Assembly: GCA_023259115.1 (NCBI GenBank)
Contig: JAHFQW010000002.1
Coordinates: forward strand, 84,392 to 145,897
Length of the DNA: 61,506 bases
Source of the DNA: an archaeon
GTDB taxonomy: Archaea > Nanobdellota > Nanobdellia > Woesearchaeales > GW2011-AR9
Direction: 5' to 3'
The position numbers were made by a program, and so were the translations under genes. Shown in pieces: positions 23,637 to 29,587 of the stretch. Below the pieces are notes generated by a model. That model made no database searches. It was not told the origin of the DNA and saw nothing but the letters and a program-made list of their open reading frames with translations. The stretch's first letter is position 1; each line of letters begins with the position of its first letter.

Positions 23637-24371
23637 ATGCCTACCATTGAAGAATTAGCACGAAAGTCTCCCAAGCCTTGCTGGAGTAAGGTCAATTATA
23701 TGTGGCATTATCTGGGCTTATATGTTGCTCGTCCTTTACTTACGACAAGTATAACCCCTAATCAGATTACGGTGTTTTGGATTTTCTTACAATTAATTGC
23801 TTCTGGGCTTATGTTAGGGGGTTATGGGTATCGTGTAGCGGGGATTCTTATTCTGAATATATTTGTTAATTTGCTGGATTACACTGATGGAAATGTTGCT
23901 CGAATTAAAAATTTAAAAACTTTTTTAGGTGAATATCTGGATCGACTAGGATTGTATACTGGAATGCCTTTATTTCTGTTAGTGTTAGGAATCGGCATGT
24001 ATATGAGACAGAATGATCCAATTAGTTTTTACATGGGGATTATCTGTTGTGTTGCTCTGCTATATGATAAACTTTTCAATGTAAATCCGGCATGGTACCC
24101 CGCTGAAAAAGTGGCAGACTTAAAGCAAGTTTACCTCAAATCATCTCTGGCTAACAAGAATTGGTACTCATATATGTCTGAAGTATTTCGCAAAACACAA
24201 CCATTTAATCTTCTTTTTTTTGGAATTATATTTGATCGGATTAGAATTACGTTAATAATTTATGCAATTATTTCTGTACTGGCTATGGGTAAAAAACTCT
24301 ATGAACAAATACGAGCGCTTCAACGAATAGATCGTAATAATAAACCGGAAGAAGTTAATATTTCATATTGA
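23637..24371 (+). CDS. CDP-alcohol phosphatidyltransferase family membrane protein
   Basis: A 244-residue integral membrane enzyme with about five to six hydrophobic segments. The CDP-alcohol phosphotransferase motif is visible as DYTDGNVAR followed by GEYLDRLG (about residues 81-103). The family consensus D-x2-DG-x2-AR-x8-G-x3-D-x3-D is complete except for the last aspartate, where the residue is Leu. That Asp is the proposed catalytic base in characterised members, so the reaction may differ or be lost. Known members join a CDP-activated lipid or polyol to an alcohol. Its position at the edge of the sulfation module suggests a lipid anchor or polyol-phosphate step. It is convergent with, and overlaps the end of, the next gene. 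Confidence 0.8.
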   Translation: MPTIEELARKSPKPCWSKVNYMWHYLGLYVARPLLTTSITPNQITVFWIFLQLIASGLMLGGYGYRVAGILILNIFVNLLDYTDGNVARIKNLKTFLGEYLDRLGLYTGMPLFLLVLGIGMYMRQNDPISFYMGIICCVALLYDKLFNVNPAWYPAEKVADLKQVYLKSSLANKNWYSYMSEVFRKTQPFNLLFFGIIFDRIRITLIIYAIISVLAMGKKLYEQIRALQRIDRNNKPEEVNISY

Positions 24372-25200
24372 GGTTTTTTTTATATTTCTGCACTAGGATA
24401 TCATGTATTAAGCCGTTTGATGCTAAAAGTCCATGTTCGTGATTAATTTGTTCTGTGTTGTATCGTAATTCTTGTCCTAACATATCAGTCATTTTACCTC
24501 CTGATTCGGTAATTAGGCAGTAGGCAGCACAACTATCCCAATGTTTAATTTTATTTGTGGTGGTAAAATAAAATTCTGCTTTTCCCCAGCAAATCTCTGC
24601 CACTTTAATGCCACAGCTACCTTTTTGAACAAAATTAGTTACGGCTAATTGTTGTAAGAATTTCTTCTCTTCTTCTCCTAAATGGTGCCTACTCATAACG
24701 GCTCGACAAGAGGATAGATTCAGAGTGGAATTAACGTGGAGGGAATGCCATCTCTCTCCATCGTGAACAAAGGCACCTCCACTCTTCTGCGCAACAAAAA
24801 GAATATCTGAAGAGGGACAATATACAATGCCTAATTCTGGAAGACCATCTACTACCAACGCAATCATAACTGAAAATTCTCCCGATTTATCAATAAAGTC
24901 TGCAGTGCCATCGAGTGGATCAACTACCCATACTTTTCTATGTTGTAGTCGGGAGAGGTTATCTTCTGATTCTTCAGAGAGAATAAGATAATTGTATTTT
25001 TGTAACATCTCACTTATTATTTTATTACTTTCCCTATCTGCTTCTGTTACAGGTTCTTTTCCGTCTTTAAAATTTACTGAGAAATCTCCTGAATATATTT
25101 TCAGTATGGCTTTTCCAGCTTTTTTTGCCGCTTTAACTGCGAGAATTGTTTCTGGCAGTGCTGATTTGAAAGGCAAATGAGAAAAATTGCGTTCACTCAT
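24355..25200 (-). CDS. cysQ: 3'(2'),5'-bisphosphate nucleotidase-like (CysQ/inositol monophosphatase family)
   Basis: A 281-residue phosphatase of the inositol monophosphatase fold. Metal ligands are in EPVTEADRESN, then SEES and the diagnostic VVDPLDGTADF (about residues 92-102). The C-terminal motif is HWDSCAAYCLITESGG. The neighbours are APS kinase (ATGA overlap at 25197-25200), ATP sulfurylase and a sulfotransferase, so the substrate is most likely PAP, the product of PAPS-dependent sulfation. Removing PAP relieves product inhibition. Inositol or fructose bisphosphate remains possible by sequence alone. Confidence 0.82.
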   Translation of the reverse strand: MSERNFSHLPFKSALPETILAVKAAKKAGKAILKIYSGDFSVNFKDGKEPVTEADRESNKIISEMLQKYNYLILSEESEDNLSRLQHRKVWVVDPLDGTADFIDKSGEFSVMIALVVDGLPELGIVYCPSSDILFVAQKSGGAFVHDGERWHSLHVNSTLNLSSCRAVMSRHHLGEEEKKFLQQLAVTNFVQKGSCGIKVAEICWGKAEFYFTTTNKIKHWDSCAAYCLITESGGKMTDMLGQELRYNTEQINHEHGLLASNGLIHDILVQKYKKNLNMKY

Positions 25201-25721
25201 AATGATTTCCTCTGTTGTTGTAAAAAATGCATTACCTTGCTGACACTCTCCATAAGAGATTCTTGAGAAGTATGTAGGGTCAAAGCAGGGTTTTCAGGAG
25301 GTTCATATGGATTTGATTCTGCAATTCCGATAAAATTAGTGATTTCTCCTTGCAATGCTTTACGATATAAGCTCTTTACGTCTTTTTCTATACATTTTTG
25401 GAGTGGGCAATCAATAAAAATTTCCAAAAAAGTATTTCCGATAATAGATTTAGCCATAATGCGATCTTCCCGATAAGGAGAAATTATCGGAACAAGGACA
25501 TAATCGGCGGGTGATACTTTTGCCAATTCGGCAATAAGGCGGTTATTAGTTCTGATGTCTTCCCGTGAAAAACCAAGATTGGAATGCAATTTTTCTCGGA
25601 TGGTATCCCCATCAAGTATTTCAACTGTTTTGCCTTTTGCTTTCAGTTGCTCTTGGAGAGCCAGAGCTATGGTTGTTTTTCCTGAGCCGCTGAGACCGGT
25701 GAACCAGAGGGTAGTAGTCAT
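25197..25721 (-). CDS. cysC: Adenylylsulfate (APS) kinase
   Basis: A 174-residue kinase. The Walker A motif GLSGSGKTT is near residue 9, followed by DGDTIREKLHSNLGFS (the APS-binding DGDxxR and GFS motifs) and the Ile-Ser-Pro-x-R lid segment. It phosphorylates APS to PAPS, the donor for sulfotransferases. The order on the minus strand is ATP sulfurylase fusion, PQ-loop protein, this kinase, then PAP phosphatase, the whole PAPS cycle in one direction. The length is that of a stand-alone bacterial or archaeal CysC. Confidence 0.92.
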   Translation of the reverse strand: MTTTLWFTGLSGSGKTTIALALQEQLKAKGKTVEILDGDTIREKLHSNLGFSREDIRTNNRLIAELAKVSPADYVLVPIISPYREDRIMAKSIIGNTFLEIFIDCPLQKCIEKDVKSLYRKALQGEITNFIGIAESNPYEPPENPALTLHTSQESLMESVSKVMHFLQQQRKSL

Positions 25722-26033: not shown

Positions 26034-26306
26034 TTAACTTTTCTTTTTTTGTTGGTGATAAATGGTATATAATATTAAGTATATTACGGTAGTGATAAGT
26101 GCTACAATATATTTGAAAATCAAAGGGAATTGATGAATTAACAGGGCGTAAGCCAGAGCAATCATATTTGCAATTAAAAAAATAATGAACATCATGAGGC
26201 TTACTCCACTAGTGTCTTTCATTTTTATAGTTCTGATCATTTGGGGTATAATCATTACGGAAAATAAGAATGTAGCTGTCCATCCTAATATTTGGGTGAA
26301 ATCCAT
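26034..26306 (-). CDS. PQ-loop / SemiSWEET-like small membrane transporter
   Basis: A 90-residue protein with three hydrophobic helices (about residues 5-25, 38-58 and 64-84) and the PQ motif MIIPQMIRTIKMKDTSGVS after the first. One triple-helix bundle is the SemiSWEET unit, which works as a dimer in sugar transport. The gene lies 1 nt downstream of the PK-ATP sulfurylase stop, within the sulfate-activation operon, so its cargo may relate to that module. This is inference only. Confidence 0.78.
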   Translation of the reverse strand: MDFTQILGWTATFLFSVMIIPQMIRTIKMKDTSGVSLMMFIIFLIANMIALAYALLIHQFPLIFKYIVALITTVIYLILYTIYHQQKKKS

Positions 26307-26307
26307 T

Positions 26308-28572
26308 TTATTCTTTTACAAAAACTTCTTCGTCTTTTTTAATCGCATCTACAATTATTTGAGCAATCTCTGGACGCATGAACCAACTAGGCGGCAATTC
26401 GCCACGTTCAAATATTTTTCGTGCTTGTGTGCCGCTGATTAATAGCTTATCCTCTTCCGGATGATGAGGAAACTCTTGTTCATGAAGATGTTGGCCTTGT
26501 TTTTGCGAGTAAAATATATTATCAAAGCGCACGGGTTTAATATCTAATTCAGGGAATCGGTCAAAGATATTATGTGAAGCTTTAGGATGATAGAAATTTC
26601 CAACACCGGTATGATCTCTGCCAACAATAAAATGGCTACAACCAAAATTCTGCCGACATAATGCGGTGAATAATGCCTCTCGAGGACCAGCGTAGCGAGA
26701 GTAGCTAGAAAAGGTGCCAAAGATAACTTTATTTTTGGGATAGAACTGTTTGTTCATGAGCTCATAGGATTTGATGATATATTTGGCGTTAAAGTCGCCA
26801 GTTTTTTTCTTTCCTACGACGGGATGTACAAATAAGCCATCACAATTCTCCATATCCATGGCTTTGAGTTGGATGAATTCGTGGCTACGATGGATAACAT
26901 TTCGAGTATGAAAGCCCACCACTTTTGCCCAACCGCGTTCTTCGAATAATCTTCGTGTTTGCTTAGGTGTCAATTCGTATTCTTTGAATTCATTTTTCAT
27001 GCGTTTGAGCAGCGTTATTTTTCCTGCAAGAAGTATAGGATGCATATTCATGACCATTCTAACTCCGGGATGTTCCAGGTTATCGGTTGCGTACATTTTT
27101 TGAACGGTTTCTATTTTATTAAATGTATATTTTTCAGAGAGAGATAAGAGGGCGATGGTTTCGTTTTGTTCATTGAGAAGAGCAATATCTTTTCCGATGG
27201 TCAACGTAGATGCTTTATCTTCAGGTACATCGAGAATGATCGGAAGAGGCCAGACGAGTCCATTTGCTAATCTTGTGCGGTCGAGTACGGATTGGAAATC
27301 TTCTTTGTTCATGAAACCTTCAATGGGACTATACGTTCCAATGGCGATTTGTTCCACATCTCGTTGGCGGTTTTCGTCAAGGGTGATGGCGGGTAGAGTT
27401 TGGAGATATTCGGCGGAGATGGTTTCTTTTGCGATGCTATCAATTAATTTTCCTCCATGTGGTTGGATAAGTGAGGAGAAGATATTGAAATCGAGGAGAT
27501 AATTCGTTTTTTCTAGTTTTTCTACAAATTTGTCTTCTTTATCTTGAAATTCCTCCACGTTGATGAGCTGGGCATGTTTGATGAGCTTGTTGAGCATATT
27601 GATACAGGCCATAGGATATTTTCCTATAGCAGTTTCTGCTGCTAAAGCCAAGCCTTCTGCGCCATCAACGATGGTATTAATCACATCATGCACTTCTGCT
27701 CTTGTGGGTTTTTTCTGAGTGATCATGGTTTCGAGTAGGTTAGTGGCGATAAAAACTCCCACACCATATTTTTTAGCTTTGTTAATGATGATTTTTTGGG
27801 TGAGAGGAATTTTTTCGATAGGTATTTCTTTACTCAGGTCGCCTCGATCGATGAGAAGATAATCTGATTTACGAATTATATCATTGAGATTTTCCAACGC
27901 ATCGATACATTCTATTTTAGAAATGATTTTCATGGTATTTTGGGTTACTCTGCGTACTTCATCTACGGCACTACCAGAACGCATGAATGACGCTGCAATA
28001 TATCCAATCCCATTTTCTAATCCGATGTGAATGGACTGGTGATCTTTTTCGGATAAAGTGGGGAGGGATAGTTTTTTGTTAGAAACGGAATCAATGATGA
28101 CGGCTTTATTTCTTCCTAGAACTCCACCGGTGATTGCTTTAGTAGTGATGTAGCCTTGTGATAAGGTGGAGGTGTCAGAGATGCGCAGAATGACGGTGTC
28201 AAAGTCAACGTGAATAAGATCACCAACTTCTAACTGGCCGATGATGGATAAAGGAGTGAGATTGATGTTTTTGTCATCCCCGGTAATTTTGGTGGAATGG
28301 ATTTTGATTTCTTCGTTATCTTCCAATTCGATGGTGTTGGTGGATAATTCTCCGGTGCGCACTTGCGATCCTTCGGTATCTATGACAAAGGGAATGTTTA
28401 CTTTCTTTGCTAGTTGTATTGCTTGGTTGAGGTAATCTAAATTTGAATGTGACATATTTACCCGGACGAAGTCCACGCCTTTGTCTTTTATCTTGCGTAG
28501 AGAATCTTCGGATAAAGTGGAAGGACCCAATGTGACTATAACTTTGACTTTAGCGCCACCTGTTTGATTCAT
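26308..28572 (-). CDS. sat: Pyruvate kinase-like domain fused to ATP sulfurylase
   Basis: A 754-residue fusion. Residues 1-375 follow pyruvate kinase through the N, B and A domains: VTLGPSTLS, VRVNMSHS, DTEGSQVRTG, the catalytic SKIE lysine, DRGDL metal site and ATNLLETM...KPTRAEV. The C-terminal regulatory domain is absent, and the conserved Lys of DTKG is Glu. Residues about 385-750 are a complete ATP sulfurylase: N-terminal FSPLxGFMN-like YSPIEGFMN, WPLPIILDV, the HTRNVIHRSHE active-site motif, GRDHTGVGNFY and ISGTQAR. The sulfurylase makes APS from ATP and sulfate for the adjacent APS kinase. Whether the kinase half is active is unknown; ATP regeneration would suit the context. Confidence 0.92.
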   Translation of the reverse strand: MNQTGGAKVKVIVTLGPSTLSEDSLRKIKDKGVDFVRVNMSHSNLDYLNQAIQLAKKVNIPFVIDTEGSQVRTGELSTNTIELEDNEEIKIHSTKITGDDKNINLTPLSIIGQLEVGDLIHVDFDTVILRISDTSTLSQGYITTKAITGGVLGRNKAVIIDSVSNKKLSLPTLSEKDHQSIHIGLENGIGYIAASFMRSGSAVDEVRRVTQNTMKIISKIECIDALENLNDIIRKSDYLLIDRGDLSKEIPIEKIPLTQKIIINKAKKYGVGVFIATNLLETMITQKKPTRAEVHDVINTIVDGAEGLALAAETAIGKYPMACINMLNKLIKHAQLINVEEFQDKEDKFVEKLEKTNYLLDFNIFSSLIQPHGGKLIDSIAKETISAEYLQTLPAITLDENRQRDVEQIAIGTYSPIEGFMNKEDFQSVLDRTRLANGLVWPLPIILDVPEDKASTLTIGKDIALLNEQNETIALLSLSEKYTFNKIETVQKMYATDNLEHPGVRMVMNMHPILLAGKITLLKRMKNEFKEYELTPKQTRRLFEERGWAKVVGFHTRNVIHRSHEFIQLKAMDMENCDGLFVHPVVGKKKTGDFNAKYIIKSYELMNKQFYPKNKVIFGTFSSYSRYAGPREALFTALCRQNFGCSHFIVGRDHTGVGNFYHPKASHNIFDRFPELDIKPVRFDNIFYSQKQGQHLHEQEFPHHPEEDKLLISGTQARKIFERGELPPSWFMRPEIAQIIVDAIKKDEEVFVKE

Positions 28573-28650
28573 GATGTTTTTTTGAAGTAGACTATTTAAA
28601 AAGGTTGTGATAGATAGGTGTAGTCAAATTGGCGTTTACTTTTTAATAAC

Positions 28651-28661
28651 TTTTATATAAG
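28651..28661 (+). promoter_or_regulatory. TATA-like box of the sulfotransferase gene
   Basis: TTTTATATAAG lies about 26 nt before ATG 28682. A separate A+T box (CTATTTAAAAAGG, 28591-28603) serves the divergent PK-ATP sulfurylase gene on the minus strand. Confidence 0.5.
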
Positions 28662-28681
28662 GCCCTATTTGTTTTAGAATT

Positions 28682-29587
28682 ATGACTGGTGTACTGCGTC
28701 AAAAATTATGGGGGAATAGAGTTTACCGCTATTTTTATTTTCAATGGATGGGTTTATATACTATTTTCTGCACCAAGAATGCGGTTGTTTCTTATCGAAA
28801 AAGCGGTCATACGTGGGTGAGGGTAATGCTCGCAAAAGTGCTTTCGTTGGCGTATGGAATTGAGAAATTAGACATGGACCTTGTCAAAATGGCGCGAGGC
28901 AGGCCGGATATTCCAAAAATAGCGATAGTGCATTCTTTAGGTTTAGGATGGGGTATTTATCCGATTGATTGGAGAAAATTAAAATTTACGAGTATTTATT
29001 CTCGTTCTGAAAAAGTAAAGATTGGACATTTGTTTAATAAAAAGAGAATGGTGTTTTTAGTTCGAGATCCACGAGATGTGGTTGTTTCTCTGTATTTTGA
29101 GTTGACGAAACGCCATTCGTTTTATAATGGGTCGTTGGAACAATTTATCAGAGAAAAGTATGCGCTGAAAAAGATAGTTAATTATATGAATTTGTGGTAC
29201 ATAGAAATGCAACGCCGGCCGCAACATTTTATGTTATTGCGCTATGAAGATATGCAAAAAGATACGGCCAGAGAATTACGGCGTGTCGTTGATTTTTTTG
29301 GATTGAAAAATGTGTCTGATGACATAATCATGAACGCTGTTGAATTTGGGTCTATAGGAAATATGCGCAAGTTAGAGACGCAGGATGCTTTTACAGATAG
29401 TCGTCTTCGCCCTCTCAACAAAAATGATACAGAGTCGTATAAAGTACGTAAAGGGAAAGTAGGAGGATATAAAGATTATTTAGGTGAAGAAGATATACAT
29501 TATATGGAAGAATATATCACTCTTCATTTACAAAAAGAATTTGGGTATGGTGCTATAGCGAAGGATACAAATAATTATACAACATAG
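28682..29587 (+). CDS. PAPS-dependent sulfotransferase
   Basis: A 301-residue soluble sulfotransferase. The 5'-phosphosulfate loop is SYRKSGHTWVRVML (about residues 38-51). The 3'-phosphate motif is FLVRDPRDVVVSLYF (about 121-135). The C-terminal RKGKVGGYKDYL corresponds to the RKGxxGDWK motif of cytosolic-type enzymes. It transfers sulfate from PAPS to an acceptor hydroxyl; the surrounding genes make a glycan acceptor most likely. It is divergent from the PAPS-making operon, with TATA boxes on both sides. Confidence 0.9.
   Translation: MTGVLRQKLWGNRVYRYFYFQWMGLYTIFCTKNAVVSYRKSGHTWVRVMLAKVLSLAYGIEKLDMDLVKMARGRPDIPKIAIVHSLGLGWGIYPIDWRKLKFTSIYSRSEKVKIGHLFNKKRMVFLVRDPRDVVVSLYFELTKRHSFYNGSLEQFIREKYALKKIVNYMNLWYIEMQRRPQHFMLLRYEDMQKDTARELRRVVDFFGLKNVSDDIIMNAVEFGSIGNMRKLETQDAFTDSRLRPLNKNDTESYKVRKGKVGGYKDYLGEEDIHYMEEYITLHLQKEFGYGAIAKDTNNYTT

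Follow-up and report, generated by a model that had tools for sequence, protein, structure and literature searches.

Few biological reactions are as uphill as sulfate activation, and its known drivers are pyrophosphatase or GTP hydrolysis. The equilibrium of ATP sulfurylase (Sat) is very unfavourable, APS kinase releases ADP, and in CysDN a GTPase working with ATP sulfurylase brings an extra energy input to APS synthesis. Sat-pyrophosphatase is a precedent for fusing Sat with a driving enzyme (PMC2275785, PMC2705460), and human PAPSS1 in vitro yielded practically no PAPS without regeneration by pyruvate kinase (PK) and PEP (PMC9885120). We analyzed a 61,506-nucleotide stretch of DNA from an archaeon of the Woesearchaeales (hereafter, the window), for which an initial annotation had proposed that PK and Sat are joined in one open reading frame within a PAPS operon. 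The two enzymes are indeed encoded by a single frame of 754 codons, running from ATG to stop on the minus strand (which the annotation had not stated), with the PK N, A and B domains followed by a complete Sat. The features of the gene are as follows.

26308..28572, minus strand: PK-Sat fusion gene, 754 aa (single open frame; Pfam and NCBIfam domains)
27568..28551, minus strand: PK barrel with the N, A and B domains, residues 8-335, lacking the C domain (PF00224 at 8-323; aligned with E. coli PykF and further PKs)
28357..28380, minus strand: DTEGSQVR loop, residues 65-72, DTKGPEIR in PykF, with K68E, P70S and E71Q (PykF alignment)
27838..27849, minus strand: DRGD motif, residues 242-245, with Asp242 for the Ala of the VARGD signature (alignment)
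27472..27567, minus strand: linker between the two halves, residues 336-367, of low conservation (none of its 32 columns reaches 95%; lower pLDDT)
27001..27468, minus strand: Sat N-terminal PUA_2 domain, residues 369-524 (Pfam PF14306)
26347..26982, minus strand: ATP sulfurylase catalytic domain, residues 531-742 (Pfam PF01747; Foldseek to 8a8d)
26899..26910, minus strand: HTRN (QXRN) motif, residues 555-558, Gln to His (alignment)

Pfam matches were PK at residues 8-323 (5.1e-71; profile positions 3-327 of 328; 239.9 bits against a cut-off of 30), PUA_2 (2.5e-48) and ATP-sulfurylase (2.5e-77). With these near-complete domains and both NCBIfam Sat cut-offs passed (TIGR00339, 360.8 against 322.95; NF003166, 445.8 against 387), the Sat half is complete, as had been claimed. 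The PK half scored 278.6 bits against the equivalog TIGR01064, below its cut-off of 306.4, which is expected for a full-length PK model because the C domain is missing. The reported loss of this domain also held: Pfam found no PK_C in the window fusion, nor in any of the 50 fusions scanned, and the usual PK tetramer therefore cannot form in the usual way. No pyrophosphatase domain was among the Pfam matches on the chain, and APS kinase is encoded by a separate gene nearby. An AlphaFold2 model built with an alignment of 50 fusions had a mean pLDDT of 92.7 and a pTM of 0.87; in Foldseek comparisons its Sat half matched the M. thermolithotrophicus ATP sulfurylase (8a8d, target-normalised TM 0.94) and its PK half matched PKM2 and E. 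coli PykF.

Alignment to PykF agreed with the residues first reported for the PK half, i.e., the catalytic Lys219, RGD (243-245) and ATNLLETM are kept and DTKG is changed to DTEG. The window PK retains the PykF catalytic residues R32, N34, D66, R73, K220, E222, G245, D246 and T278, and 76 of 78 complete fusions have all ten PK catalytic positions intact (nine of ten in the other two), so that the PK half looks catalytically alive. Other positions have changed throughout the family: in PykF numbering, Glu71 is Gln, Ala243 is Asp and Gln279 is Asn in 84 of 84 fusions, Gly248 is Ser in 83 of 84 and Lys68 is Glu in 79 of 84. The window PK fits neither the K+-dependent signature (T113/K114/E117/T120, rabbit numbering) nor the K+-independent one (L113/Q114/K117), as it keeps T113 and T120 and has K114 replaced by E and E117 by Q. 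Such joint changes near the active site could point to a regulatory sensor, a PK-like domain that binds PEP or nucleotides and gates Sat or APS kinase without catalysis, for which the APS-kinase-like domain of fungal Sat is a precedent (PMC3779200, PMC2275785). We consider this unlikely, since the conservation of Lys220, Glu222, Asp246, Arg73 and Thr278 in essentially all 78 proteins would be unexpected for a pure sensor, and the fungal domain is, by contrast, regulatory rather than catalytic.

A scan of GTDB contigs with an alignment of the PK part alone yielded 80 loci from named genomes, 77 of which encode PK and Sat in one frame; these loci were partly selected via the D and S at the DRGD-region motif, which was part of the search seed. 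After removal of duplicates there were 83 non-identical fusions, comprising 70 PK-Sat and 13 PK-Sat-APS kinase proteins, and in a single protein from a Patescibacterium (UBA2135; L087:224-1825) PK is linked directly to APS kinase, with no Sat. The archaeal range covers Woesearchaeota, Pacearchaeota and Micrarchaeota, and the bacterial range Patescibacteria, Chloroflexota, Omnitrophota, NC10, Planctomycetota, Latescibacterota, Ignavibacteriota, Bacteroidota, Elusimicrobiota, Myxococcota, Gemmatimonadota, Actinomycetota and Pseudomonadota (including rhizobia). Flavobacterium sp. Leaf82, Mesorhizobium amorphae, Salsipaludibacter albus and Sinorhizobium saheli are cultured isolates with the fusion. 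Closer to the window, the fusion occurs in three genomes of the same family (G007, G017 and G031) and is cut by a contig end in a fourth (G023); G044, of the same order, has a 913-aa PK-Sat-APS kinase, and another family of the same class has the fusion in G095, G310, G322 and G338. Apart from the truncated G023 protein, these are full-length homologues from independent genomes, with 49-66% identity. The domain pair is thus widespread rather than an oddity of one genome. A frameshift or assembly error joining two genes, named at the outset as the way in which the fusion could prove false, is so improbable that we regard it as ruled out, given the same architecture in independent genomes, cultured isolates among them.

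In a maximum-likelihood tree computed without the diagnostic columns, all fused PKs, together with the PK-APS kinase and a lone 359-aa PK from L094, formed one clade (100/96) apart from ordinary PKs; support for this clade was 100/100 in a further tree. Of 13 fusion-bearing bacterial genomes, 12 had another PK match (a full-length ordinary PK in 11, a fragment in the twelfth), and the fusion PK is therefore not the housekeeping PK there. In the archaeal family, most members that lack Sat also lack any PK, which indicates that PK goes with the sulfate module and not with glycolysis. The window's genome (1.57 Mb, 96% complete) encodes no PK besides that of the fusion; enolase and a full PPDK are present. 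Within the enolase matches of G017, G007, G031, G310 and G322, TAG or TAA codons appeared in frame, which could reflect match overrun or recoding. The window's genome on its own would suit a passenger or scaffold arising from a chance fusion, or a sole glycolytic PK that happened to join Sat. However, the fusion is conserved across many phyla, with highly conserved domains and a poorly conserved linker, other genomes with it also hold an ordinary PK, most archaeal relatives without Sat lack PK, and unfused PK genes adjoin Sat in five genomes, all of which makes such an accidental origin very improbable.

The genes around the fusion bear out the PAPS-operon setting that the initial annotation had proposed: APS kinase and sulfotransferase genes adjoin it, as does one for a phosphatase resembling CysQ.

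26034..26306, minus strand: small PQ-loop membrane protein, the following gene of the operon, starting 1 base past the stop of the fusion (Pfam PF04193)
25197..25721, minus strand: APS kinase (Pfam PF01583, 1.5e-49)
24355..25200, minus strand: inositol monophosphatase-family protein, overlapping the APS kinase gene by 4 bases (Pfam PF00459)
28682..29587, plus strand: sulfotransferase, divergent from the fusion (Pfam PF00685, 3.2e-24)
28573..28681, no strand assigned: divergent intergenic region of 109 bases (read by eye)

The inositol monophosphatase-family neighbor is probably a CysQ-like PAP phosphatase, judging from its context. Two TATA-like candidate boxes were seen by eye in the intergenic region, about 25 nt before each ATG (28592-28599 for the minus-strand gene and 28652-28659 for the plus-strand gene). 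Sugar-nucleotide and glycosyltransferase genes surround the cluster. CDP-alcohol phosphatidyltransferase-like genes recur near sulfate-activation genes, in the window (23637-24371) and in L014, L016, L019, L084 and L107, and an APS kinase fused to an inositol-monophosphatase (CysQ-like) domain is encoded at L053:13242-14564.

Among 127 neighbor proteins of the fusions, the leading Pfam families were Sulfotransfer_1 (n = 14), APS_kinase (n = 12) and Sulfotransfer_3 (n = 12), which argues that the fusion serves PAPS supply for sulfation; this is also the most likely role of the module in the window. Assimilatory reduction was considered as the purpose of the module and rejected, as neither the window's genome (where the match was marginal, below the cut-off) nor most fused archaea have a strong PAPS reductase match. 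Strong matches are present in G007 and G023, and one adjoins a bacterial fusion (L105). A search for one pyrophosphatase family, PF00719, found no member in the window's genome.

The Sat half of the window fusion has the motifs HTRN, HRSH and GRDH, in which the RN of QXRN/RNP, HxxH and GRDH are kept. The Gln of QXRN, which in the ATP sulfurylase of A. vinosum contacts the sulfate group (PMC3779200), is replaced by His in 76 of 83 fusions, whereas most unfused Sats have Gln. In five fusions, all proteobacterial (Thauera L102, Magnetococcales L111, Rhodospirillales L115 and L143, and the gammaproteobacterium L128), the RNP, HxxH and GRD motifs of Sat are largely destroyed and the PK motifs are perfect. 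Each of their genomes has another Sat, or CysD in Thauera, and all five fusions still adjoin APS kinase or sulfotransferase, with no APS kinase gene in the fetched flanks of L102 and L128. In the Anaerolineales locus L068, an intact PK-Sat adjoins a degenerate-Sat-APS kinase protein (L068:2828-4519), possibly its scaffold partner. Given the decayed Sats beside perfect PKs, Sat domains seem able to serve as a scaffold, and the PK active site seems indispensable to the module.

We favor, with somewhat better than even confidence, a PEP-fuelled PAPS synthase in which PK would locally regenerate ATP from the ADP of APS kinase. Sat would convert ATP and sulfate to APS and PPi, and APS kinase (the nearby gene in the window, fused in relatives) would convert APS and ATP to PAPS and ADP. 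The PK without its C domain would then re-phosphorylate ADP with PEP, keeping ADP low and ATP high at the complex so that PAPS formation runs forward, and PAPS would feed the adjacent sulfotransferase as the CysQ-like phosphatase clears PAP. ATP regeneration from PEP is favored because of the ADP release by APS kinase, the unfavourable Sat equilibrium, the need of PAPSS1 for such regeneration in vitro and the Sat-pyrophosphatase precedent. The architecture shared by 83 proteins, the single PK clade, the intact PK residues, the triple and PK-APS kinase fusions and the neighboring genes are all consistent with it, as are the separate ordinary PKs of bacteria and the way in which PK appears to accompany the sulfate module in archaea. 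The fusion itself, its conservation, its intact PK catalytic residues and its PAPS and sulfotransferase neighborhood are direct observations; we infer from them the PEP:ADP activity, any direct coupling or channelling, and the CysQ identity.

Several features fit this PEP-fuelled reading less well. A243D, Q279N, E71Q and K68E are not obviously needed by a plain ATP regenerator, PK_C is absent, genomes with an ordinary PK still keep the fusion PK, and the flanks of L102 and L128 lack an APS kinase gene. In the five fusions with a degenerate Sat, coupling to Sat itself cannot be the reason for keeping PK. The initial annotation had suggested that a linked PK could regenerate ATP or consume PEP to pull sulfate activation. 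An ATP-regenerating role driven by PEP stands as the best reading of the retained PK residues and the PAPSS1 precedent (PMC9885120), and a simple pull on ATP sulfurylase does not. As PK is kept more strictly than Sat, and one PK-APS kinase exists without Sat, the link would be to PAPS supply as a whole, and the tie of PK is probably to the ADP-releasing APS kinase step.

One of the changed positions marks sulfate-linked PKs beyond the fusions. All sulfate-linked PKs examined have Asp in place of the Ala before RGD, as does none of 87 unlinked PKs (25 of a first set, 60 fetched for this comparison and two mini-PKs), and by alignment this residue (Asp242 in the window fusion) adjoins the PEP-binding RGD. 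Asp243 (PykF numbering) is present in five unfused PKs with genes beside Sat (G091, G279, G316, G421 and G432) and in a 232-aa mini-PK beside the APS kinase-Sat of G360, whereas the ordinary PKs read from fusion-bearing bacterial genomes all have Ala. When the linked PKs are restricted to those from searches that were not seeded with the motif, 18 have Asp against 0 of the 87 unlinked PKs, although these sequences are related and the p-value overstates the evidence. Three unfused Sat-linked PKs are HTH-PK-PK_C proteins, with a weak Pfam HTH match in the one scanned; such PKs, with an N-terminal HTH-like region, PK, PK_C and the Asp marker, lie in operons with Sat and APS kinase (L046:9649-11346, L047:7894-9573 and L050:8024-9730). 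A PK barrel with a C-terminal part of ~230 aa, seemingly membrane-spanning and without a Pfam match, is divergent from a standalone Sat at L049:12517-14199. Mini-PKs (~200-250 aa) are encoded in many DPANN genomes (L063:4128-4811, L064:7950-8645 and L195-L209); they are barrels without B and C domains, in which the Lys, Glu, RGD and Thr positions are kept and the Asp66-Arg73 loop is lost.

The main rival to the PEP-fuelled reading is a reprogrammed PK, in which the phosphoryl-transfer machinery would act on another substrate or PEP cleavage would be coupled directly to sulfate activation, much as GTP hydrolysis by CysN is coupled to CysD; its chief support is the Asp marker and the persistence of this PK alongside dead Sats. 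The presence of Asp in the fusions, the HTH-PK-PK_C proteins, G091 and the G360 mini-PK, the invariant Gln279 to Asn and Glu71 to Gln changes in all fusions, and the retention of the PK despite an ordinary PK in the genome and despite Sat decay in some lineages speak for it. Against it, no classic catalytic residue of PK for PEP, Mg2+ or phosphate has been lost, some crenarchaeal PKs of the K+-independent branch likewise have Gln where PykF has Glu71 (117 in rabbit numbering; PMC4374775), and the D and S were partly selected by the seed. The unfused sulfate-linked PKs grouped apart from the fusions in the free tree (100/99), but a single Asp clade was not rejected by the AU test (p-AU 0.23 and 0.26), and we therefore do not claim convergence. 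On balance we hold a reprogrammed PK to be a possible but doubtful explanation. We propose, equally tentatively, that the sulfate-linked PKs may be an Asp-marked class of their own with a reprogrammed PEP-dependent step of sulfate activation in place of ordinary ATP regeneration, in which the Sat half may become a scaffold.

If the PEP-fuelled reading is true, PEP would be a third energy source for sulfate activation and could help to account for the ability of small-genome archaea and Patescibacteria to afford sulfated products. For the production of sulfated compounds, the fusion would also provide a PAPS enzyme that is self-regenerating and ready to use, and the diagnostic Asp would make PK function predictable from sequence. 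The PK-Sat fusion is apparently both widespread and undescribed, although its sequences are presumably already in public protein databases under automatic names. In agreement with the annotation, which knew of no described example, a literature search covering few subscription journals found papers on the separate enzymes only and none that describes a PK fused with Sat or with APS kinase, and the main text of a catalogue of metabolic fusions does not mention PK-Sat.

Compared with known systems, the fusion is closest in linkage to the bifunctional PAPS synthases (PAPSS and the Aquifex Sat-APS kinase), which supply PAPS for sulfation and share the Sat-APS kinase connection of the triple-fusion relatives; it differs in its additional N-terminal PK barrel and, in the window, in having APS kinase as a separate gene. 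The Sat-pyrophosphatase of diatoms, oomycetes and haptophytes (PMC2275785, PMC2705460) likewise joins Sat to a supposed driving enzyme, but there PPi is hydrolysed, whereas PK-Sat has no pyrophosphatase domain and would regenerate ATP from PEP. The proteins of CysDN are unrelated to PK-Sat and use GTP where PEP is proposed here. Ordinary PKs (E. coli PykF, 2e28) share the fold and all catalytic residues at about 30-37% identity, whereas the fusion PK lacks the C domain and carries Ala to Asp before RGD, Gln279 to Asn, Glu71 to Gln and Lys68 to Glu. Engineered PAPS cascades with PK/PEP regeneration (PMC9885120) use the same enzymes, mixed in vitro as separate proteins assembled by chemists, in contrast to the natural fusion described here.
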